The notes beneath the pieces are model-generated. The model did not search any database and was not told the DNA's origin. It worked only from the letters and a program-made list of their open reading frames with translations. From the NCBI RefSeq assembly GCF_012932565.1, contig NZ_JABBYJ010000001.1:1488001-1552000 (forward strand): 64,000 nt of DNA, written 5' to 3'. Shown here piece by piece: positions 14,155 through 26,341 of the stretch; the stretch's first letter is position 1, and every line of letters starts with the position of its first letter. Source of the DNA: Sneathiella limimaris (GTDB lineage Bacteria > Pseudomonadota > Alphaproteobacteria > Sneathiellales > Sneathiellaceae). Both the position numbers and the translations under genes were made by a program.

Positions 14155-17100
14155 CTAGTTGTTTTTCGCAGGACTGTCATCAAGATCTTCAGTGATCCCG
14201 TGCTGAGCCATCAGGACATCCATCTCGCTTCCGGCTTGTTCGGTTGCCTCTCCTTCACCGGTTAGCAAAGAAGCAACTTTATCGGCCAAATCTGAAATGT
14301 TACCCCCACCAATAATGCTCATCGACGATAGCTCAATGCCTGTTTTGCGCTCAAGTTCCATGGTCAGTTCCAGGGCCATGAGGCTATCAATTCCGAGGTC
14401 AAATAGGGACTTTTCGGCAGAGATTTTATCAGTTGGTGAACCCGTGATGGCTGAAATCTGGCTGATGACAAGAGCTTGGACGAGTTCCACGATTTCATCA
14501 TGAGACTTACCTTCAAGCGAGGCAATGAAATCATCAGCATCTTCAACAGAGCCGGCTTCGCCAACAAGGTGTTGGATATCCAGATACCGTGAGGTTGAAC
14601 CCACAGCAAAATTCCGTGTTACATTGCCCCAGTCCAGTTGAAGCATTGCGACATTATCTTTATTTGCAAGGACAACATCTTCAAGACCAGAGAGTGCCGC
14701 AGCAGAGCTCATGGCTTTTAGTCCCGTCCGTTTGACAAGGATATCCTTCACGTCTTCATTTGCTGCGAGGACACCAACATCATCAATTGCACCCCATGCG
14801 ACTGTGGTTGCAGGCAGACCTTGTCTACGGCGGTAATCTGTTAAGGCTTCTAAGTAGCTATTGGCAGCGACATAACTTGCCTGACCCGGGTTGCCGATAT
14901 AGGTCGTTGCTGATGAGTACATCAGGAATAGTTCAATCGGATCTGACAGGGTCAGCTCATGTAGGTTCCAAGCGCCAGCAATTTTTGGGGCGGCGACTTT
15001 CTGAAGTCCTTCAGGCGCCATATTGGCAATCAAGCCGTCTTCCAAAACCATTGCGCAATGAATGATGCCAGAAATAGAAACTTTTTTGCTGCGAAGATCA
15101 GCGAGCAGAGTTTCAAGTTCCTGTCGTTTAGTAACATCTGCGTTGTAGAGGTCGATTTGAATGCCATCAGCTCGCAGTTGGTCAATAATGGCCTGATCTT
15201 CAGGTGTTTTAACGCCACTTCTGCCGATGAGAACCAGATGATCAAAGTGCTTGGATGCAAAATTCTTTGCTGTGGCTAAGCCAAAACCACCTTGTCCGCC
15301 GGTAATCAGGCATGCTCCATCGTAATGCGATTGAGGCGTTGTAGCCTGTTTTTGTGCAGCGACAGTTTTACGATCTGCTGTGTCATCCATGCTCACAACG
15401 ATTTTGCCGATATGTCGGCTTTGCTGCAGGGTGCGAAACGCTTCTTCAATCTGAGAGGGTTTGAATTTCAGATGCACAAGAGGTCTGAAGGCTTCTGTTT
15501 CAAACAGCTCCATCATCTCCTTAAACAAGCGACTGGAAAGGGCTGGTTTTTCAGCAAGTAGCTGATCTGCGTCAATCCCGTAATAGGTAATATTGTTGCG
15601 GAATGGACGAAGACCGATTTTGCTATCTGCATAGAAGTCCCGTTTACCCAACTCCAGAAAACGCCCGAAGGGTTTCAGGATAGACAGGTTTTTGGGAATT
15701 GCCTGGCCGGATAGGGAGTTCAGAATAACATCCACGCCTTCGCCGTTGGTCAGTTCCATAATTTGATCTGCGAATTCGAGCGTGCGTGAATTAAGCACAT
15801 TTTCACAGCCCAGCAGTTTCAGGAAATCCCGCTTTTCAGCAGAGCCAGCTGTGACATAAATTTCGGCGCCAATATGCTGGCAATACTGTATGGCGGCAAG
15901 ACCTACGCCACCGGCAGCACCATGGATGAGGACCTTCTCCCCAGGTTCCACGCGCGCAAGATAGTGGAGTGCATAGTAAATGGTAAAAAATACACTCGGG
16001 ATTGTTGCCGCTTCGTCATAGGACATTTCGTCCGGTATTTTGGCAACGGCAGTTGTCCGGGTGCGAATGATATCGGCGAAGCAATTGGGGGCAAAACACA
16101 TGACTCGGTCACCTGGAGCGAAATCAGTGATTCCGCTGCCAACTGACTTGACGATACCAGCACCTTCCATGCCGAGGGTGGGGCCTGCATACCCGTTTTC
16201 GACAGCTTCATCTTTCAGAATGCCCATGGCCAACATAACATCACGGAAGTTGAGGCCCGTTGATTTCATGTCGACTTCAATTTCATCCGCGCCAAGTTCT
16301 TCCTGATGATCCATCTCAAACCAGGTCAAATTTTCGAGCGCGCCGGGTTTTGCAAAATCAAGACGGAAGTGGCTATCCGAAGTTGCGGATTGAGTTGTCA
16401 GGTCTGCTTGCCGAATGCGCGAAGCAAACCGGCCACCTTCACGGATCACAATTTCCCGATCCCAATCGAATGTTTCCAGTTCTCGACTGAGGATCTCAGC
16501 GGTTGCCGTTCCAAAAAGGGCTTTAGTTCCAGCTGGAAGGTCAATGAGCTTGCACTGCAAATCCGGGAATTCATTGGTAATGACTCGACCCAAGCCCCAA
16601 AGAGGTGCGTGTAGAGGCTGGGTCTGATCCGTTTCATTTATTTTCTGACTGCCTTGTGTAACAAGCAGCAACCGTGTTTTGCTGAGCAGAGAAGGGGATA
16701 GACCTTGAAGAAGGTTTACCAGAGGAAGGCATCTAACATCTTGCGCTGCAAGAGCTTCCGCTTCGTTATGGAGAGAGAGGCCCGCCAGATAGAGGCAGCT
16801 TTCAACCGTCTTGCCGCTATCCACTATTAACTTTGAAAGACTGCTGATTTCTTCTGTAGTTGCAGCGCCAAGGCCCATTTCCTCTTGTAGGTCAGGCGTA
16901 AACTCTGTTCCAAGCTTTAGAATATGGTGCTCTTTCGGCCCTTCTAGCGCGGCAATCCGCTTGGCCAGTTTCAGCTCATCCTCTGAATTTGAGACAATGA
17001 TCAGTTTCAGGCCAGAGGCTTCTACGTCAGGCTGAGCTTTAGGCAAAGCCGCATTTTTAACGTGGGAGCCGGTCAGCAGCATGCTGTTGTGAAATGGCGT

Positions 17101-20100
17101 GTTGTCAGTAGAAAGAAGTAGTTCGGTTTCAAACTCTTCATTGCCAGCCAATTGTTGCATCCAAGTGGCTTCGTTTAAGGTCAGTGGCCGGAGTTGATTG
17201 GTAGAGGTACTCCGATCCCACCAATTGGGCGCGCCGCCTGCAAGGAAAGAAGAGATGCGGCCACCACTATTTTGGCCGAGGAAAAACCGTCCGTTCAGTT
17301 TCAGCAGAGAACGGATCATTGGCGCAATGACCTCATAACGAGGTGGTGTAACTGGTGTTCCCCTAAAAATAATCACGTCATACTGAGGGGCATTTTCCAT
17401 ATAGGATTGAAGGGCTTCACCAGACGTGTCTTCCAGGTATTGGCAGGAAACCCCGTTCATTGCTGAAAATTCCAGGCGTGCGCGGTGATGCGCATTGGAG
17501 TCTGTCGCCACAAAATCGTAAATCAATCGGTCTTTTGGTGCCTGATTAAGGAAAGATTTTGTGCTGAGAATATTCTGACCACCGAATTCCAGAATACGTA
17601 CGCTAATACTCTCTGGTAAGGATGACAGGAACTCGGCAAGTGCTGAATTTAAAGCCGTGTCAGATGTGGCAGAATAGGCTGATCCTTCCACCAACTGTTT
17701 TGCCAAAGAGGTTTCGGAGTGGATGGGCAGATCCTCTGGAAGAACAGCACCAGAAAGAATTTCCGGAAGGTTCTGTCCTGTCCGACCGATCATGGTGAGT
17801 TCTGGCAGAAGTTCTGGATGATCTGCAATCAGGAGCCGCCAGATGTCACTTGCGGCAAAGAGTTCGGCTTCCTCATCCAATTTCCACGTGTCGTCTTCGC
17901 GTTCAAGTAAACCATCTTCCTTGAGGAGATTGAGCAGAAAATTCACAAACCGGGATTGTGCCGGATCGATCTGTTCAGTGGCAATCAGATCAAGAACCCG
18001 GAAGCCAGACTTTAGATTTGCGCCCAAGGTTTCCAGTGTTTCCAAGACAAAGGCAGAAATGAGCGCATCTGTCAGAGGGGCAACTTCTTCACCATAACTG
18101 CTTGCATCACTGGTTGCTTCAAAAGGAAGGTTAGCCTCCTCAATACCAGAAGGCAGAGGATGCCCTTCCAAGAGTGGAGTTGGAACATAGTTTTGTTGGT
18201 ACAGCGTTGGCGTTTTGCTTTGCCCTTGGCTTTCGAACAGGCGGAAACGGCAATCCTGCAGGTCTGCTACTGGACTGCCATCTTCTGCAACCAGCCTAAA
18301 GTCTGCAATGATCGAGCGGCTGCTGATCCGATTAATACGGGCAATTGAGCGGACCGCCTTTGCTCCGGGCTGATAGAGGCGCACCTTACCGAAAACGGAT
18401 GGCAGGTAGGTTGCTGCTTTTACCGAATTGGTTGGATCTGTCAGCAGGGTGAACAAGCTTTGTAGACATCCATCGCCAATCGCGGGATGGAGGTTATAAA
18501 GATCTGCCGTCTCAAGGCAGTCTGTTGCCAATTGAATTTTGGCACTGACTAAATTTTCGGCGAGTTGGATTTGCTGTACGGTCTGAAAATTGGGCCCATA
18601 TGTTAGTCCCAACGATTGGGTCAGTTCATAGAAGCCGGATTTATCAAACGGGGCCTCAGCGAGCGCATCGTTATGATCTGCCCAAGTCCAGTTCGGTATT
18701 TCGGACGAGGTATCTTTTACGACATTTGCTGTCACATTGGTGAGACCTGCTGAATCGCTAAGGTAGGGGCGACTTTGGATCTGAACCTTGCCATCAACTG
18801 GATCAAGGTCAACGATCAGCGTGCGAAGAGCTTTTTCTTCGAGGGCAAGGGGTGCATGAATTTCGAGGTTTTCAACAACCAGATTGCCTTCACCATACGC
18901 TTTGCGACCTGCTGCAAGCACAATTTCCAAGAAGCCCGCTGCGGGAAAGATAACCGTGTCGTTGACTAGGTGATCTTTCAAGAAATTAGGTTTCAAGGCG
19001 CCCAGATGAACCATCCATTCTGTCTGTTCAGGATTAAGCGCCTCACCGAGCAGAGGGCCTCCCCAATCAGCCGTTAGAGAAAATCGAGCTTCAGAGGTGG
19101 TTTCGAGATGATAAGTTTGCCGATCCCAAGGATAGGTCGGCAGCAACTCAGATTTCACAGGTTTTGAGAATTGGGACGCGTAATCAATCCGACCGCCTTC
19201 AACATAGACGGCTTCCAGAATGTGAGCTATTCGATCCGCATCCGCCTTGCCAGTAATTGCAGGAAGGACACTAAAGCCTTCTGATTTCTGTTTGAAGCTG
19301 TTCTTGAGATAACCGCCCAGGATCGCTTTGGGTCCGATTTCCAAGAACATGCGGCAGCCCTGATCCCAGGCGGAGTTTATGGCCTGATCAAAAAGCACAG
19401 GTTTACGGATGTTTCGCCACCAATAATTTGCTGTGAGCTCTTCACCTGAAATTTCTTGGCCGGTCACAGTTGAAATGAGTGTACCGGAGCCATTTTCTGG
19501 AGATAGTTTTGCAAGGTTGGTGAGAATTTCGTCTTCAACAGGATCCATTAAAGAGCTGTGGAAGGGATATTCAAGATCCAGTTTTTTAAAGAGAATTCGG
19601 TTCTTTTTACAATATGGTTTTAAGATATCCAGTTGATCGTCATGACCAGACAATGTCAGACTGGTCGGACCGTTATATCCTGCAATTTCCACATCCAGGG
19701 CAAGCTCAGCGATAATTTCATCCAGCTTTTCGGGCGCTATTTCAATAGCTGCCATGCCGCCATGGCCGCGGGTGTTGCCTTGAGCATTACTCCGCGTGAG
19801 GATGACAGTAACCGCTTGCTCTAGAGACAAATGGCCCGCTGAGTAGGCTGCGGCGATCTCTCCGACACTGTGACCAATACTGGCTTCAGGCTCAATGCCC
19901 TGACTTTTCAAGACCTCGATCAAACCGATCTGAATGCTCATAATCAGTGGCTGGGCAACAGTGGTATCAGCAATATGTTCTTCGGTTGAGTTCTTGAGCG
20001 TCTCAACAATTGACCAACCAGCTTTACTTTGGACTATGGCATCTATCTGACGGATCTTCTTGGCAAAGGTTTCATTTTCTTTGAGAAGGTCGGCTGCCAT

Positions 20101-21783
20101 TCCTACATACTGGGAGCCATTACCATTAAAGATAAAGGCAATAGGTTTATCCGCCCCATGTGTGTGTCCTGTTTGGCAAGGGAAGTCAGCAGTATCTTCC
20201 TTTGCATACTTCAGCAGAGCATGCCGGATTTCATCGAGCGTATTCGCAGACAGACCAAGCCGGTATTCAAAATCTTCGCGATGGAATACAGTTGAGGCAG
20301 CAAGGGTTGAGAAATCATTCAAGCTAAATTCTGGCTGTGAGAGGATCTCAACGTAATCGAGACAGAGTGCTTTTAACGAGAACTCAGATCTGGCTGACAA
20401 CAGGAGTGGCGGAAGTTGCGTATCATCTGCTGTGGAGACAGTTTTCTGGTCTTCAGCCTGCTGACTGTAAGAGCTGAGGATTGCGTGTCCGTTCGCACCA
20501 CCGAACCCGAAGGAGTTCACGCCAACCGTCATTTTGGTTGATTTGTCGAAGGTGTGGTGTTCCGTTGCGACTTTGATTTTGTAATCTTCGAACGGTATAT
20601 CCTGACGGAGTTCCTTGACGTGGATTGAAGGCGGCACTTCCGCATTTTTTACAACAAGTGCAGCTTTAATCAGCCCGATCATGCCTGATCCTGCTTCCAG
20701 ATGACCTGCATTTGATTTGGCAGACCCAATCAGCAAGGGTTGATCCGTTTTTCGTTCTTCGCCAAAGAAGCGACCGATCGCACCAACCTCAGCAGCATCG
20801 CCGACAATGGTTCCTGTACCGTGGGCTTCGATATACTGAACTTCATCTGGTGCGATGTTGGCGCTTTTGTATACGCGGCGTAACAGGGCTTCCTGATGAT
20901 CAGAGCTTGGCAATGACATACCGTTTGTCCGCCCATCGGCATTTGTTCCAATACCTTCGATGGTGGCAATAATTGGGTTCCCATCTGCCAAGGCCTGGTC
21001 CAGATCTTTCAGGATTAGAACGCCACCGCCTTCAGAGCGAACGTAGCCATTACCCTGGCTGTCAAAAGCTTTACAGCGTCCATCGGGGGATAGCATGTTG
21101 GCTTGTGAAAAGCCGATAAAAGGGAAGGGGGTCAACAAGACGCTGACGCCGCCACAAATTGCGATATCCGATTGACCAGAGGCAATCCTGTTACAGGCTT
21201 GCTCCAGTGCATAAAGAGATGAGGAGCAGGCCGTATCGACTGAAAAGCTGGAGCCATGCAAATCATAAAAATAGGAGAGGCGATTGGACGCAATGCTCAT
21301 GGTTGAGCCGAGCATAAAGAAGGAGTTGCCTGTCGCGCTATCACCGAATTGGCTCGTGCCAAAATCGTTGGATGAAATACCTACACAGACACTCGCATTG
21401 CTGCCCCGTATGCTGGATGGTTTTATGCCTGCATCTTCAAATGCTTCCCAGCTCATTTCGAGCAATAGGCGTTGCTGAGGGTCCATCTGAGCCGCTTCTC
21501 TCGGCGAGATGTTGAAGAAATCAGCGTCAAAATCCCAAATATTCTCTAACTGTCCAGCAGCCTTTGTATAGGCTTTTCCCTGAATATCTCTTGCCGGATA
21601 GTAAAAGGTTTCTGGGTTCCAACGATCAGGGCTTATTTCCGAGATGAGGTCATCACCATTAATCAAAACTTCCCAAAAACGGCTAGGGGTATCACAACCT
21701 TTAGGAAGACGAACGGAAGAGCCAACAATGGCGATTTTACCGGCGTTGGACGCTGGGATACGCTTAGAATTCTGATCAGTCAT
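14155..21783 (-). CDS. rkpA: Type I highly reducing PKS / fatty acid synthase (RkpA-like)
   Basis: A 2542-residue modular synthase. Domains in order: KS (about 15-435; Cys186 in DTACSSS, histidines in EAHGTGT and KSNAGHLEAG); AT (about 548-860; GHSVGE near 638 and PFHS favouring malonyl units); DH (about 905-1185; HLVNDTVIFP near 937, where the usual glycine is aspartate); a methyltransferase-like region near 1395-1500 lacking a proper GxGxG; ER (about 1815-2140; HGAAGGVGLA); KR (about 2155-2340; TGGQGGFG, catalytic Ser and Tyr near 2287 and 2301); and one ACP with DLGIDSL near 2464. There is no thioesterase, so release must come from another enzyme, most likely the downstream oxoamine synthase. 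Length and neighbours match rhizobial RkpA, which makes a lipid for K-antigen. Its start overlaps kpsS by 8 nt. Confidence 0.93.
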   Translation of the reverse strand: MTDQNSKRIPASNAGKIAIVGSSVRLPKGCDTPSRFWEVLINGDDLISEISPDRWNPETFYYPARDIQGKAYTKAAGQLENIWDFDADFFNISPREAAQMDPQQRLLLEMSWEAFEDAGIKPSSIRGSNASVCVGISSNDFGTSQFGDSATGNSFFMLGSTMSIASNRLSYFYDLHGSSFSVDTACSSSLYALEQACNRIASGQSDIAICGGVSVLLTPFPFIGFSQANMLSPDGRCKAFDSQGNGYVRSEGGGVLILKDLDQALADGNPIIATIEGIGTNADGRTNGMSLPSSDHQEALLRRVYKSANIAPDEVQYIEAHGTGTIVGDAAEVGAIGRFFGEERKTDQPLLIGSAKSNAGHLEAGSGMIGLIKAALVVKNAEVPPSIHVKELRQDIPFEDYKIKVATEHHTFDKSTKMTVGVNSFGFGGANGHAILSSYSQQAEDQKTVSTADDTQLPPLLLSARSEFSLKALCLDYVEILSQPEFSLNDFSTLAASTVFHREDFEYRLGLSANTLDEIRHALLKYAKEDTADFPCQTGHTHGADKPIAFIFNGNGSQYVGMAADLLKENETFAKKIRQIDAIVQSKAGWSIVETLKNSTEEHIADTTVAQPLIMSIQIGLIEVLKSQGIEPEASIGHSVGEIAAAYSAGHLSLEQAVTVILTRSNAQGNTRGHGGMAAIEIAPEKLDEIIAELALDVEIAGYNGPTSLTLSGHDDQLDILKPYCKKNRILFKKLDLEYPFHSSLMDPVEDEILTNLAKLSPENGSGTLISTVTGQEISGEELTANYWWRNIRKPVLFDQAINSAWDQGCRMFLEIGPKAILGGYLKNSFKQKSEGFSVLPAITGKADADRIAHILEAVYVEGGRIDYASQFSKPVKSELLPTYPWDRQTYHLETTSEARFSLTADWGGPLLGEALNPEQTEWMVHLGALKPNFLKDHLVNDTVIFPAAGFLEIVLAAGRKAYGEGNLVVENLEIHAPLALEEKALRTLIVDLDPVDGKVQIQSRPYLSDSAGLTNVTANVVKDTSSEIPNWTWADHNDALAEAPFDKSGFYELTQSLGLTYGPNFQTVQQIQLAENLVSAKIQLATDCLETADLYNLHPAIGDGCLQSLFTLLTDPTNSVKAATYLPSVFGKVRLYQPGAKAVRSIARINRISSRSIIADFRLVAEDGSPVADLQDCRFRLFESQGQSKTPTLYQQNYVPTPLLEGHPLPSGIEEANLPFEATSDASSYGEEVAPLTDALISAFVLETLETLGANLKSGFRVLDLIATEQIDPAQSRFVNFLLNLLKEDGLLEREDDTWKLDEEAELFAASDIWRLLIADHPELLPELTMIGRTGQNLPEILSGAVLPEDLPIHSETSLAKQLVEGSAYSATSDTALNSALAEFLSSLPESISVRILEFGGQNILSTKSFLNQAPKDRLIYDFVATDSNAHHRARLEFSAMNGVSCQYLEDTSGEALQSYMENAPQYDVIIFRGTPVTPPRYEVIAPMIRSLLKLNGRFFLGQNSGGRISSFLAGGAPNWWDRSTSTNQLRPLTLNEATWMQQLAGNEEFETELLLSTDNTPFHNSMLLTGSHVKNAALPKAQPDVEASGLKLIIVSNSEDELKLAKRIAALEGPKEHHILKLGTEFTPDLQEEMGLGAATTEEISSLSKLIVDSGKTVESCLYLAGLSLHNEAEALAAQDVRCLPLVNLLQGLSPSLLSKTRLLLVTQGSQKINETDQTQPLHAPLWGLGRVITNEFPDLQCKLIDLPAGTKALFGTATAEILSRELETFDWDREIVIREGGRFASRIRQADLTTQSATSDSHFRLDFAKPGALENLTWFEMDHQEELGADEIEVDMKSTGLNFRDVMLAMGILKDEAVENGYAGPTLGMEGAGIVKSVGSGITDFAPGDRVMCFAPNCFADIIRTRTTAVAKIPDEMSYDEAATIPSVFFTIYYALHYLARVEPGEKVLIHGAAGGVGLAAIQYCQHIGAEIYVTAGSAEKRDFLKLLGCENVLNSRTLEFADQIMELTNGEGVDVILNSLSGQAIPKNLSILKPFGRFLELGKRDFYADSKIGLRPFRNNITYYGIDADQLLAEKPALSSRLFKEMMELFETEAFRPLVHLKFKPSQIEEAFRTLQQSRHIGKIVVSMDDTADRKTVAAQKQATTPQSHYDGACLITGGQGGFGLATAKNFASKHFDHLVLIGRSGVKTPEDQAIIDQLRADGIQIDLYNADVTKRQELETLLADLRSKKVSISGIIHCAMVLEDGLIANMAPEGLQKVAAPKIAGAWNLHELTLSDPIELFLMYSSATTYIGNPGQASYVAANSYLEALTDYRRRQGLPATTVAWGAIDDVGVLAANEDVKDILVKRTGLKAMSSAAALSGLEDVVLANKDNVAMLQLDWGNVTRNFAVGSTSRYLDIQHLVGEAGSVEDADDFIASLEGKSHDEIVELVQALVISQISAITGSPTDKISAEKSLFDLGIDSLMALELTMELERKTGIELSSMSIIGGGNISDLADKVASLLTGEGEATEQAGSEMDVLMAQHGITEDLDDSPAKNN

Positions 21784-22993
21784 GGAGTAACTCTAAACTA
21801 CTACTTTCGATCATTCTACGAAAAGAATTTTTAACACCTAGATTCATACCGATTTCTGTGTAGAAGTTGCCATTAACATGGCAATTTCTGAGAAGCTGGT
21901 CCTTGAATTTCTCCAATACCAATGGATCTGTACTCACCGGATTGGTCCAGAATTCCTCAACACTTCCTTGGTAAATCAATTCATGAGAGTCATAAATTGA
22001 CTTTCCAAGCAAGGCAACCGGCAATTGCATTTCCAGGGCAGTGATTCCAACTGTGCTGTTTACTGTAATCACGCCTTTTGCATAGGATAATATTCTATTC
22101 AAATCACCACCGTCGATAAAGGTGATACGGCCTGAAATATTTAATCTACGTGCTTCTTTTTGAATATGAGATCGATAGTTCAGCATCCCGTTATCAAGAG
22201 GATGGTTTTTAATCAATAGATGCGCGTTTTCAGGCGCTTTTTCGGCAAACTCCTTCAATACATGATCTATTGCTCCGGGCATACCTTGAAAAGGAGAATG
22301 AAGTCGTATCTGAAAATCTGAATCCAGCTGAAGTGGAAACAGAAACACAGGCCCCTCGTGACGGGACAAGGTTTCAATGTCCGCTCGTGCCTGCCGCCTT
22401 TGCCATGAGAGCTTAAAAAGTCGCCTAATCCAATAGGCGTACTCAATCAGAATTGGGTACGGGCGATGGGTTTTGTGATATGGAAACCGCCACTTTAGTA
22501 TTATGTTGAAAAAATTATAGATAAAATCAAAGGTTACGCGTTGCTTGAAACCGCCTGAGAGTTTTTGGAATTCGGACGTTTTCGAAAGTTCACTGGAAGG
22601 ATCGAACTCAAAACTAGAGTTGGCGTTGACACCTCCTTCTTCCAATGTCACCCAATGAGGGCGGAGGTATCCCTCTTCAAAAACCCAGATCTGGATTCCG
22701 GTTTTTTGTGCAAGGCGAATGGCCTTTAGATGCCAGGGGCGGCAGTCACCAAAAAGAACGAAATCGGTAAAAACTTCTTGTTTGATTAGAGTGCCGAGAA
22801 AGTCTTCAAATTTTTCAGGCCGCCCTCGATAGTTGATTTCATTCAAGCCATGCCAGTAGAACCAATCACCGCCATTGAAGTTGATCTTTCGTATGGAGTA
22901 GCCCTCGGATTGGAGCTTTCGTCCAAGTTTTCGAAAGAAGGGACTGGCTATGGTCTGTAAGAAAAGGAAGGAGCGTTTTGAAGTTTCCGGCAA
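21776..22993 (-). CDS. kpsS: Capsule polysaccharide Kdo transferase, KpsS/RkpJ-like
   Basis: A 405-residue protein with KpsS hallmarks: FLFLQTIASPFF at the start, KINFNGGDWFYW near residue 37, FGDCRPWH near residue 102, FEEGYLRPHWVTLEEGGVN near residues 124-142, KNHPLD near residue 265 and ITVNSTVGITALE near residue 312. KpsS adds the first beta-Kdo residue to the lysophosphatidylglycerol anchor of group 2 capsules; the rhizobial relative is RkpJ. It is cytoplasmic or membrane-peripheral. Its stop overlaps the PKS start by 8 nt, strong evidence of coupling between making the lipid and putting the first sugar on it. It begins 79 nt downstream of the acyl-CoA dehydrogenase gene on the same strand. 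Confidence 0.9.
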   Translation of the reverse strand: MPETSKRSFLFLQTIASPFFRKLGRKLQSEGYSIRKINFNGGDWFYWHGLNEINYRGRPEKFEDFLGTLIKQEVFTDFVLFGDCRPWHLKAIRLAQKTGIQIWVFEEGYLRPHWVTLEEGGVNANSSFEFDPSSELSKTSEFQKLSGGFKQRVTFDFIYNFFNIILKWRFPYHKTHRPYPILIEYAYWIRRLFKLSWQRRQARADIETLSRHEGPVFLFPLQLDSDFQIRLHSPFQGMPGAIDHVLKEFAEKAPENAHLLIKNHPLDNGMLNYRSHIQKEARRLNISGRITFIDGGDLNRILSYAKGVITVNSTVGITALEMQLPVALLGKSIYDSHELIYQGSVEEFWTNPVSTDPLVLEKFKDQLLRNCHVNGNFYTEIGMNLGVKNSFRRMIESSSLELLHD

Positions 22994-23072: not shown

Positions 23073-24875
23073 TCAGAAAAACTCTTCGGTTGCATTGAAC
23101 GTCGTCTCATCGATTGAGCCAACAAGATCGGCCCAAACTGGAATGCGCGGCATTTCATACCTGTAGAAATATTGGCAAGCAAGTATCTTACCGTTAAGGA
23201 AATCAGCGTCTGCAGTTGTACCGTTTTCTAATTTTTCTCTGGCGACTATGGCCATACGAAGCCATTGCCAGCCAATGATCAGGTGGCCTAACATATCCAG
23301 ATAAGGCGTCGCATTGGCAAGTGCCAGATTGACATTTCCTTTAGCGAGTTCAACGCCGACCTTTTGGGTTGTCTCTCCAATTTTTTCGAGTGAGACTGAC
23401 AGTGTATGAGCAAATGGGGCAAGGCCTTCGACCTTCATAGCCGCGTCAATCGTCTCACTAATGCGGGAAGCGACCAATTTAAACCCGGCACCGTTATTCA
23501 TCACGACCTTTCGCCCGAGAAGGTCCAGTCCCTGAATCCCATGGGTGCCCTCATGGATCGGATTTAACCGGTTGTCCCGGTAATATTGTTCCACCGGATA
23601 ATCTCGGGTGTATCCATACCCTCCCAAGATCTGGATGGCATGTTTGTTCGCTTCCAGGCAGAACTCGCTGGGCCAGGATTTTACCACTGGGGTCAAAGTA
23701 TCTAAAAGCAGACTTGCGTCTTTTCGGGTCTGTTCATCTGTTGACGTTTTCTCATCATCAACTAGATCAGCCGCATATAGACAAAGAGCCAGCGCCCCCT
23801 CTACCGCCGCTTTCTGGGAGAGGAGTAGGCGTTTAATATCTGCATGTTCAATGAGCATACGCTGGGGTTCGTTAGGATCTTTCCCATCGGGATGCCGGCC
23901 TTGTGGTCGATTTTTCGCATAATCGAGACTGTAGAGATAGCCAGCATAGCCAAGACTTACTGCACCGAGGCCAACACCAATACGGGCTTCGTTCATCATG
24001 TGGAACATGTAAAAGAGCCCTTTATGCTCTTCGCCAATCAGGTAGCCGACAGCGCCTTCGTTCTCCCCGAAATTTAATAGCGTATTTGTGGTTCCCCTAT
24101 AGCCCATTTTATGGTTTAGGCCAGCAAGCGAAACATCGTTCCGTTCGCCTAACGATCTGTCGTCATTGACCAGGAATTTTGGGACGATAAACAGAGAGAT
24201 GCCCTTTACACCCGGTGGGCCACCCGGAATTTTGGCGAGAACCAGATGGACAATGTTTTCAGAAAGTTCATGTTCCCCAGCCGAGATCCACATTTTGTTG
24301 CCAGTTATGCGATAAGTGCCATCCTCCTGTTTGACAGCTTGTGTTTTAATATCAGAAAGCGAAGATCCCGCTTGCGGTTCGGATAGACACATTGTTCCAA
24401 AGAAACGCCCCTCCACCATGGGTTCCATAAAGCGTTTCTTCTGCTCATCAGATCCATAAGCCCTAAGCACGTTGGAGGCACCGATAGTCAGGAAGGGATA
24501 ACCCGACGTTCCCACATTAGCGCTGTTGAAAATGGCGCTGCAGGACATGGCGATAGAGGTTGGCATTTGCATTCCGCCAACCTCATAGTCATGCTGAATG
24601 CCAATAAAGCCGGCCTCAATATAGGCATCGAGGGCCTCCTTGACTTCAGGAATGATATGAACTGTTTTGCCATCAAAAGTCGGCTCGTTGAGATCAGCTT
24701 TTCGATTGTGAGGCTCAAAAAGATCGCCGGCGATTTTTCCTGCTGTTTCCAGCACAGCCTGAAAAACATCCATGTCATGGTCTCTGAAGCGCTCCCTGTC
24801 ACACAATCGATCAACATGCAGCATGTCATTCAGGTGAAATTCCAGATCTTTTAAGCTCAGAGTGTTTAGAGGCAT
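23073..24875 (-). CDS. Acyl-CoA dehydrogenase, DmdC/AcdA-like long form
   Basis: A 600-residue FAD-dependent acyl-CoA dehydrogenase of the longer class carrying an extra C-terminal domain. Visible motifs include MCLSEPQAGSSLSD and ITGNKMWISAGEHE in the middle domain, GYRGTTNTLLNF, and the C-terminal LGGYGYTRDYPVEQYYRDNRL and HEGTHGIQGLDLLGRK, which hold flavin and active-site residues. This subfamily includes DmdC, the 3-methylmercaptopropionyl-CoA dehydrogenase of DMSP breakdown, and general long-form enzymes; no dmdB or dmdD is in view, so the substrate stays open. It is divergent from the 2OG-oxygenase pair across a 248-nt gap holding two perfect CRP-like palindromes. Confidence 0.9.
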   Translation of the reverse strand: MPLNTLSLKDLEFHLNDMLHVDRLCDRERFRDHDMDVFQAVLETAGKIAGDLFEPHNRKADLNEPTFDGKTVHIIPEVKEALDAYIEAGFIGIQHDYEVGGMQMPTSIAMSCSAIFNSANVGTSGYPFLTIGASNVLRAYGSDEQKKRFMEPMVEGRFFGTMCLSEPQAGSSLSDIKTQAVKQEDGTYRITGNKMWISAGEHELSENIVHLVLAKIPGGPPGVKGISLFIVPKFLVNDDRSLGERNDVSLAGLNHKMGYRGTTNTLLNFGENEGAVGYLIGEEHKGLFYMFHMMNEARIGVGLGAVSLGYAGYLYSLDYAKNRPQGRHPDGKDPNEPQRMLIEHADIKRLLLSQKAAVEGALALCLYAADLVDDEKTSTDEQTRKDASLLLDTLTPVVKSWPSEFCLEANKHAIQILGGYGYTRDYPVEQYYRDNRLNPIHEGTHGIQGLDLLGRKVVMNNGAGFKLVASRISETIDAAMKVEGLAPFAHTLSVSLEKIGETTQKVGVELAKGNVNLALANATPYLDMLGHLIIGWQWLRMAIVAREKLENGTTADADFLNGKILACQYFYRYEMPRIPVWADLVGSIDETTFNATEEFF

Positions 24876-25036: not shown

Positions 25037-25069
25037 TGTGACAACCGTCACAGTGTGACGTTTGTCACA
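25037..25069. promoter_or_regulatory. Two tandem perfect palindromes of CRP/FNR-like form
   Basis: Two 16-bp palindromes, TGTGACAACCGTCACA at 25037-25052 and TGTGACGTTTGTCACA at 25054-25069, lie 1 bp apart. Each has perfect TGTGA-N6-TCACA half-sites, the classical CRP consensus, and even an extra matched C/G pair. They lie in the divergent gap between the acyl-CoA dehydrogenase (minus) and the oxygenase pair (plus), 55 bp upstream of the oxygenase ATG. Centre spacing is 17 bp, too close for two CRP dimers on the same face, so a TetR-type operator pair or alternative occupancy is also possible. Confidence 0.75.
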
Positions 25070-25123: not shown

Positions 25124-25726
25124 ATGATTGTTATGCCGTCCGCACCCATGCGGAATTCAGGCACAGCGGCTGTGTACGTGAATACAGTATTCACAGAGGA
25201 AGAATGCGATCGAATTCTGGAAACGCTGGATGACGACAAATGGGAAGAGGCCATGGTCGGGGGCGTTCAGGAAAAGGGTGTCTTCACAGTCGAGAAGGAT
25301 TTTCGCAGCAACTATCAGCAAAAAGTTCCTGTTGATGACATGGGCTTTCCGCTGAACCGGATTGCTGAAGAGATTAGCCGCGCAAATTCAGAAATTTGGC
25401 GTTTCGATCTTGGAGGGTTCGCCGAAGATGATATGCCGTGGGTCATGGATTACTGCCGCCAGGGTGATCATAATGATTGGCATGTGGATCTTGGTCAGGC
25501 GGCAACCGCCTCCCGTAAGCTAGGGTTTTCCCTACAACTGACTGAAGGCTCCGAGTATGAGGGGGGTGACCTTGGTTTTCATAGGATCAAAAAGAAACGG
25601 GAAGAACTGACAAGAAAAGGAACGCTGATTGTATTCCCGTCATTCTGGCTACATCGGGTTGCACCCATGACAAAAGGCGCACGAAAAGTTGTTGTCGGCT
25701 GGGTCCATGGTCCGAGTTTTCGATAG
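25124..25726 (+). CDS. 2-oxoglutarate/Fe(II) oxygenase, PKHD/prolyl-hydroxylase-like
   Basis: A 200-residue double-stranded beta-helix protein. The iron triad is intact: H120 and D122 in NDWHVDLG and H177 in FWLHRVAP; R187 follows ten residues later as the expected 2-oxoglutarate carboxylate ligand. The GGDL turn at 147-150 is typical of the prolyl-4-hydroxylase/PKHD group, which hydroxylates proteins or small molecules. I chose ATG 25124 over the in-frame GTG at 25103 because AGGGAGA lies 5-11 nt upstream of it. The gene is followed after 9 nt by a paralogue that lacks the iron ligands. Target unknown. Confidence 0.87.
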   Translation: MIVMPSAPMRNSGTAAVYVNTVFTEEECDRILETLDDDKWEEAMVGGVQEKGVFTVEKDFRSNYQQKVPVDDMGFPLNRIAEEISRANSEIWRFDLGGFAEDDMPWVMDYCRQGDHNDWHVDLGQAATASRKLGFSLQLTEGSEYEGGDLGFHRIKKKREELTRKGTLIVFPSFWLHRVAPMTKGARKVVVGWVHGPSFR

Positions 25727-25735
25727 GGGGATGCT

Positions 25736-26341
25736 GTGAACAAGATTTCTATGCTGCCACTTCGCAATACAAATGTTTCACTTTCAATGCATTGGCCTGT
25801 GTTTTCAGCTCAGGAATGTGCCCAAATCGTTGCCCAGGCAAATTCGGGGGCTTGGACATCCAAGTTACCATTGGGCCCTGGAAATGCACCGGTGTTTCCT
25901 GATGCGAGAGAATTTAAGGCAATTGATCGTCAGCGCCTGCCGCTTGGTAAAAATGGGTATCCACTGGATCAGATAAACTATGGGGCCTGTCAGGTAAATT
26001 CTGATGGTTGGCGTTTTGAACTAACCGGATTTCCTGCTGACGATATGCCGTGGATGGTTCGCCAGAAGAAAGGCGATATAGCTGATGATGAATGGCTGGT
26101 AGATATTGGCGGCGGTTTTACGTCTTCTAGAAAACTGACCTTCATTTTGCAGCTGTCAGATCCCAATAGTTATGAAGGTGGAGATATCCATCTACATAAT
26201 ATGGGACAGGATACAGAAGGATTTCGTCAGCAGGGAACGCTGGTTGTTTTTCCATCCTACTGGCTACAACGCATAACACCAGTTACCCGTGGAACCCGCC
26301 ATTATGTTGTTGGTTGGATCCACGGGCATAGTTTCCGTTGA
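25736..26341 (+). CDS. Degenerate 2OG-oxygenase paralogue, probable pseudoenzyme
   Basis: A 201-residue paralogue aligned over its whole length with the preceding protein (shared DDMPW, SRKL, YEGGD, GTLxVFPS, VVGWxHGxSFR). The GTG start at 25736 follows a GGGGG box. Both iron-binding histidines are replaced: the HxD motif reads L121-V-D123 (EWLVDIG) and the distal histidine is Q178 (YWLQRITP); the oxoglutarate-binding arginine R188 is kept. Canonical Fe(II) chemistry is therefore unlikely. A local HLH at 152-154, absent from the partner, is a curiosity. The close pairing suggests a regulatory or scaffold subunit of a heterodimer, but no such complex is known to me for this pair. Confidence 0.83.
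   Translation: MNKISMLPLRNTNVSLSMHWPVFSAQECAQIVAQANSGAWTSKLPLGPGNAPVFPDAREFKAIDRQRLPLGKNGYPLDQINYGACQVNSDGWRFELTGFPADDMPWMVRQKKGDIADDEWLVDIGGGFTSSRKLTFILQLSDPNSYEGGDIHLHNMGQDTEGFRQQGTLVVFPSYWLQRITPVTRGTRHYVVGWIHGHSFR

Follow-up and report, generated by a model that had tools for sequence, protein, structure and literature searches.

A putative operon of a 2OG-Fe(II) oxygenase and its pseudoenzyme paralogue in Sneathiella limimaris

Two adjacent genes, here called A and B, were analysed in a window of 64,000 nt, which is the whole stretch of DNA under study. Our main reading, to which we give a probability of about 0.6, is that they form an operon of two genes, with A as a working enzyme and B as a non-catalytic partner subunit. 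A would be a P4H/PKHD-like 2OG-Fe(II) oxygenase that oxidises a substrate, and B a paralogue that has kept the fold and given up catalysis. B would bind A and either stabilise it or shape or complete its substrate pocket, as TlxI does for TlxJ. To a fuller version, in which a bacterial P4H/PKHD-like oxygenase is an obligate heteromer with its pseudoenzyme twin under an operator almost exclusive to its promoter, we give slightly less than even odds.

The gene pair and its promoter region

Gene A (25124..25726, plus strand) encodes a 2OG-Fe(II) oxygenase of 200 aa that matches PF13640 and has Y110, H120-x-D122, H177 and R187 intact. The codons of its iron ligands lie on the same strand at 25481..25489 (H120-V-D122) and 25652..25654 (H177, the distal ligand). 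Gene B (25736..26341, plus strand) starts with GTG and encodes a paralogue of 201 aa in which the corresponding residues are Q110, L121-x-D123, Q178 and R188. The coordinates and residue numbers given in the original prediction proved correct when the sequence was read again, and B does align with A throughout, as had been stated, with 40% identity over 195 aa in BLASTP (E = 2e-55). The scores against PF13640 (2OG-FeII_Oxy_3) were 45.9 bits for A and 32.5 bits for B, both above the Pfam cut-off (gathering score) of 27 bits. That a B-type protein passes an oxygenase cut-off without an iron triad calls for caution in annotation. The GTG of B follows the stop codon of A after 9 nt, so the two genes very likely share one transcript; the spacing in the other pair-bearing genomes is about 6-26 nt.

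A motif search and a comparison of 11 genomes revealed an operator-like palindrome, TGTGACAACCGTCACA (25037..25052, plus strand), 87 nt upstream of A. The motif search gave a second one, TGTGACGTTTGTCACA, at 25054..25069 on the same strand, and two boxes are also present in the sister genome G005. This 16-bp palindrome, TGTGAYN4RTCACA, stands 61-87 nt upstream of the ATG of A; it is exact in 10 of the 11 pair-bearing genomes and has one mismatch in the eleventh, G024. Exact sites number three in the 3.66-Mb genome studied here, two of them being those before A, while the site before A is the sole one in the genomes of G003, G018 and G022. The adjacent palindromes look like a dedicated, putative operator. 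In form they resemble a CRP-family site, and six CRP/FNR-type HTH matches exceeded the Pfam cut-off in this genome; our literature search found no paper on a TGTGA-N6-TCACA regulator in alphaproteobacteria. By eye, a promoter-like stretch (TTGGC...TAG) was seen just upstream of the box in several genomes, and the box would therefore coincide with the start of transcription, in the manner of a repressor site. The third exact site (L126:1501-1516; G000 C3:49578) precedes, by about 85 nt, a gene on the minus strand whose product, named by eye, resembles a secreted fasciclin-domain protein.

Of 26 genomes from the same family, 11 have both genes, all of them in one genus, and neither a lone A nor a lone B was found among the 26. 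The conserved gene order is an acyl-CoA dehydrogenase (minus strand), A and B (plus strand), a mandelate-racemase-type epimerase (minus strand) and a DUF1611 gene (minus strand). The divergent acyl-CoA dehydrogenase, located here at 23073..24875 on the minus strand, adjoins the pair in 10 of the 11 pair-bearing genomes, and an enoyl-CoA hydratase stands in its position in G022. At the same place the pair-less genomes carry an enoyl-CoA hydratase together with two genes whose products, judged by eye from sequence, are an M20-type hydrolase and a TypA-like GTPase. In a tree of the flanking genes, genomes with the pair fall on either side of the genus root, which makes it probable that the pair is ancestral in the genus and was lost at least once. 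B is intact in G005 and A is frameshifted (6866-7467 of L076); the neighbouring acyl-CoA dehydrogenase (4827-6627 of L076) is also split by a frame change, so these breaks are probably assembly errors. Elsewhere in the window, a 2542-aa multidomain polyketide-synthase-type protein (14155-21783; KS-AT-DH-ER-KR-ACP by Pfam) is followed by a capsule-synthesis-type gene (21776-22993).

Active-site residues and selection in B

The family-invariant positions were defined as the 25 alignment columns with the same residue in at least 20 of 21 rows of A and 11 diverse outgroup oxygenases. The HxD...H iron triad was invariant in all 10 intact A orthologues and in the 11 outgroups. Among the 25 columns, only R61, Y110 and H120 (the last in 10 of 11 orthologues) are consistently lost in B, and the other 22 are mostly kept. 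R61 and Y110 are gone from all 11 orthologues. Y110 is the tyrosine ten residues ahead of the HxD histidine, and the tyrosine of PHD2 that matches it presumably lines the 2OG pocket. In the B of this genome it is replaced by Q110 (26063..26065, plus strand), and the 11 orthologues have Q, H or R in place of a tyrosine that is invariant in A and the outgroups. Changes in B cluster in the pocket more than expected by chance. The B of this genome is changed in 4 of the 25 columns, 3 of which belong to the five pocket residues Y110, H120, D122, H177 and R187 (hypergeometric p = 0.016). Over all orthologues, which are not independent, 25 of 55 pocket cells were changed compared to 15 of 220 elsewhere (Fisher p = 9e-11, without correction for kinship).

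The ligand positions themselves differ between species. Position 121, the first (proximal) ligand (L121-V-D123 in place of H-x-D, 26096..26104, plus strand), carries Q in six orthologues and E in three; this genome has L and G024 has H. At the distal position (Q178, 26267..26269, plus strand), 9 of 11 have H, with Q only here and Y in G021. The Asp of the HxD motif is kept in 10 of 11, with A in G022, and the 2OG-carboxylate arginine (R188, 26297..26299, plus strand) likewise in 10 of 11, with C in G017. Only the B of G024 combines H-S-D with the distal His to give a complete iron triad (1 of 11). Because CTG is one base from CAG and G005, the sister genome, carries Q here, L121 probably arose recently from Q.

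These data change the picture given by the original prediction, in which B had lost just two histidines and kept the 2OG arginine. In the B of this genome the two histidines and the arginine are as described, but this is not the conserved state: across the orthologues the proximal histidine is generally lost, the distal one is generally kept, and the arginine is retained with the single exception of G017. The losses of R61 and Y110, common to all orthologues, had been missed. Independent histidines in the second gene of other genomes, which had been named as evidence against selected loss, are present both at the distal position and, in G024, at the proximal one, and by that criterion the literal two-histidine claim fails. 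The homologues thus show the same pair but mostly not the same substitutions, and the two-histidine loss is largely peculiar to this species rather than a conserved signature. The HLH at residues 152-154, which had been called new, is not: H154 corresponds to the invariant H153 of A, and H152 is private to this genome, the other B orthologues having I, V or L. The motif was rejected as a replacement metal site in B.

B is an open frame without frameshift in all 11 genomes, with orthologues 60-79% identical and a protein divergence of up to 40%. The median pairwise dN/dS was about 0.10 for B and about 0.06 for A, with dS saturated and few A pairs computable; the firmer figure is the dN of B, which was 1.8 times that of A in the same genome pairs. 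Furthermore, 33 positions are B-specific: at least 10 of 11 orthologues agree there on a residue that A lacks, and most of these positions lie in the N-terminal half. Because B is under purifying selection, has conserved positions of its own and concentrates its changes in the pocket, it appears to be kept for something other than the old active site, and on these sequence grounds we regard it as a genuine pseudoenzyme. The selection for a non-catalytic role proposed originally therefore finds support: B is intact beside every A with nearly all of its family-invariant fold positions kept, and none of the 11 B genes shows the random decay or frameshifts that had been named as contrary evidence.

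Fold and relatives of the two proteins

The AlphaFold2 model of B (pLDDT 84.4, pTM 0.83) has the oxygenase fold, a double-stranded beta-helix (DSBH). Its Foldseek matches were PiuC (9qn0), Shewanella 3dkq, a Pseudomonas P4H, PHD2 and OGFOD1 (4nhx), with E-values down to 5e-8 and moderate TM-scores of 0.45-0.65; PiuC and 3dkq came nearest. The closest solved sequences to A were PiuC (9qn1, E = 6e-6) and 3dkq. Among solved proteins, the PKHD-type PiuC/YbiX group thus comes closest to A in sequence and to B in fold. According to the alignment, PiuC keeps the H-x-D and H ligands, unlike B. Neither protein reached the YbiX/PiuC equivalog cut-off of NCBIfam (NF00397x), where 143 bits were needed and the best scores were 65.1 for A and 51.7 for B. 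Because of this shortfall, we do not class A as YbiX/PiuC proper. In the trees, A and B were each monophyletic at 99-100%, with B on a long branch. The AU test gave p = 0.165 for A and B as one clade and p = 0.31 for B outside, which leaves the tree undecided on their sisterhood.

Role of B beside A

A partner role for B is suggested by the co-occurrence of the two genes, since each genome of the family has both or neither. The separate loss of ligands in different lineages (H177 to Q or Y, D122 to A, R187 to C) suggests that binding of metal and 2OG is no longer selected. On the other side, two neighbouring genes could also co-occur because single deletions removed them together, and not through functional dependence. 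The B of G024 has a full iron triad, and a model of A and B as one fused chain gave no confident arrangement of the two domains. Moreover, AspH variants remain active with only one His ligand (PMC10947486), so the loss of ligands is not in itself proof of inactivity.

B may instead be a stand-alone non-catalytic binding protein, such as a substrate carrier, a decoy or a regulator of another target, which is only co-regulated with A. We consider this unlikely. The 33 near-invariant positions of its own would suit such a role, as would the read-through A-B fusion model (4-residue linker), in which AlphaFold returned a pTM of 0.56, no confident domain arrangement and no confident A-B interface. 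In the genomes searched, however, B never stands alone, and A and B always share one tight operon.

The AspH variants, H679A and H725A (PMC10947486), together with the H-x-D...H of G024, make residual catalysis by B possible on sequence, and E-x-D together with the distal His could still coordinate a metal. It is nevertheless improbable that B as a whole is a still active enzyme with changed ligands (E/Q-x-D...H), since two of the three ligands and the pocket tyrosine are gone in this genome, and position 121, with L, Q, E or H, does not behave like a conserved new ligand. AspH has a reduced ligand set like that of B but belongs to an unrelated branch, and it serves here as a caution.

The original prediction had offered a partner subunit or a 2OG sensor. 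The partner subunit is the best reading, but the sensor, a B that binds 2OG (or metal) without turnover and signals to A or another protein, now seems very improbable. Retention of the arginine in 10 of 11 orthologues, and of D123 and H178 in most, would fit it. But the pocket tyrosine is lost throughout, the arginine appears dispensable in view of the Cys in G017, the metal ligands, which anchor 2OG, vary from lineage to lineage, and the B of this genome retains D123 alone of the three. A decaying pseudogene, to which the 1.8-fold faster evolution of B and the drift of its pocket might point, is refuted in practice by 11 intact genes without stop or frameshift across up to 40% protein divergence, a dN/dS of about 0.1, and the retention of most of the 22 other invariant positions besides the residues that are B's own.

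The partner reading has counterparts among known systems. Heterodimers of live and dead Fe/2OG oxygenases were called unprecedented on their discovery in fungi in 2021 (PMC12141560). In TlxI-TlxJ, catalysis is made more efficient by the dead subunit, which also supplies a substrate-binding loop; TlxI lacks the 2OG arginine, is catalytically incompetent and is required for full TlxJ activity (PMC11880133, PMC12141560). Like A and B, TlxI-TlxJ (and TlxC-TlxA) of talaromyolide biosynthesis are encoded by clustered, related oxygenase-type genes with the fold kept, and in TlxI-TlxJ, too, one member is catalytic while the other lacks an active-site or co-substrate residue. A and B are clustered, related, retained together and missing such residues in one member, as in a TlxI-TlxJ-like heteromer. 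They differ in that TlxI-TlxJ belongs to a fungal natural-product branch; moreover, TlxI lost the 2OG arginine, whereas B mostly keeps it and lost the tyrosine and the proximal histidine. In OGFOD1, a catalytic DSBH is packed on a second, non-catalytic DSBH, possibly arisen by gene duplication (PMC4396695). The eukaryotic ribosomal prolyl hydroxylases OGFOD1, Tpa1 and Ofd1 thus resemble A and B in joining a live and a dead DSBH, and 4nhx is among the matches of B, but they are single linked polypeptides and not two separate bacterial proteins of about 200 aa. By analogy, the pair may be a counterpart of TlxI-TlxJ, or of OGFOD1 with its dead domain, in another branch of the oxygenases.

If the fuller version, with an obligate heteromer, is true, bacteria would have arrived independently at the TlxI-TlxJ arrangement, here in the prolyl-hydroxylase-like branch, and the residues lost by the pseudo-subunit would differ from those of TlxI and keep changing between species. 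The eleven natural pairs, graded by how far the active site has been lost, would then form a tractable system for the role of a dead subunit.

Outside the genus, A-like proteins (E < 1e-50) were present as single copies in three of 385 genomes of the class (G144, G388 and G181), and none but this genome had the pair or an A-like protein among 398 genomes of the phylum. A viral origin was rejected after two scans of viral contigs gave no relative. Tandem arrays of three related 2OG oxygenases occur in G239 and G403 (L070, L071); they were dismissed as further enzyme/pseudoenzyme sets, HxD and the distal His being present in the copies read. In G144 (L067:7949-10351), the single-copy A homologue adjoins a TPR-sulfotransferase protein and is also next to a gene resembling thioredoxin reductase, and these neighbours possibly hint at the substrate.
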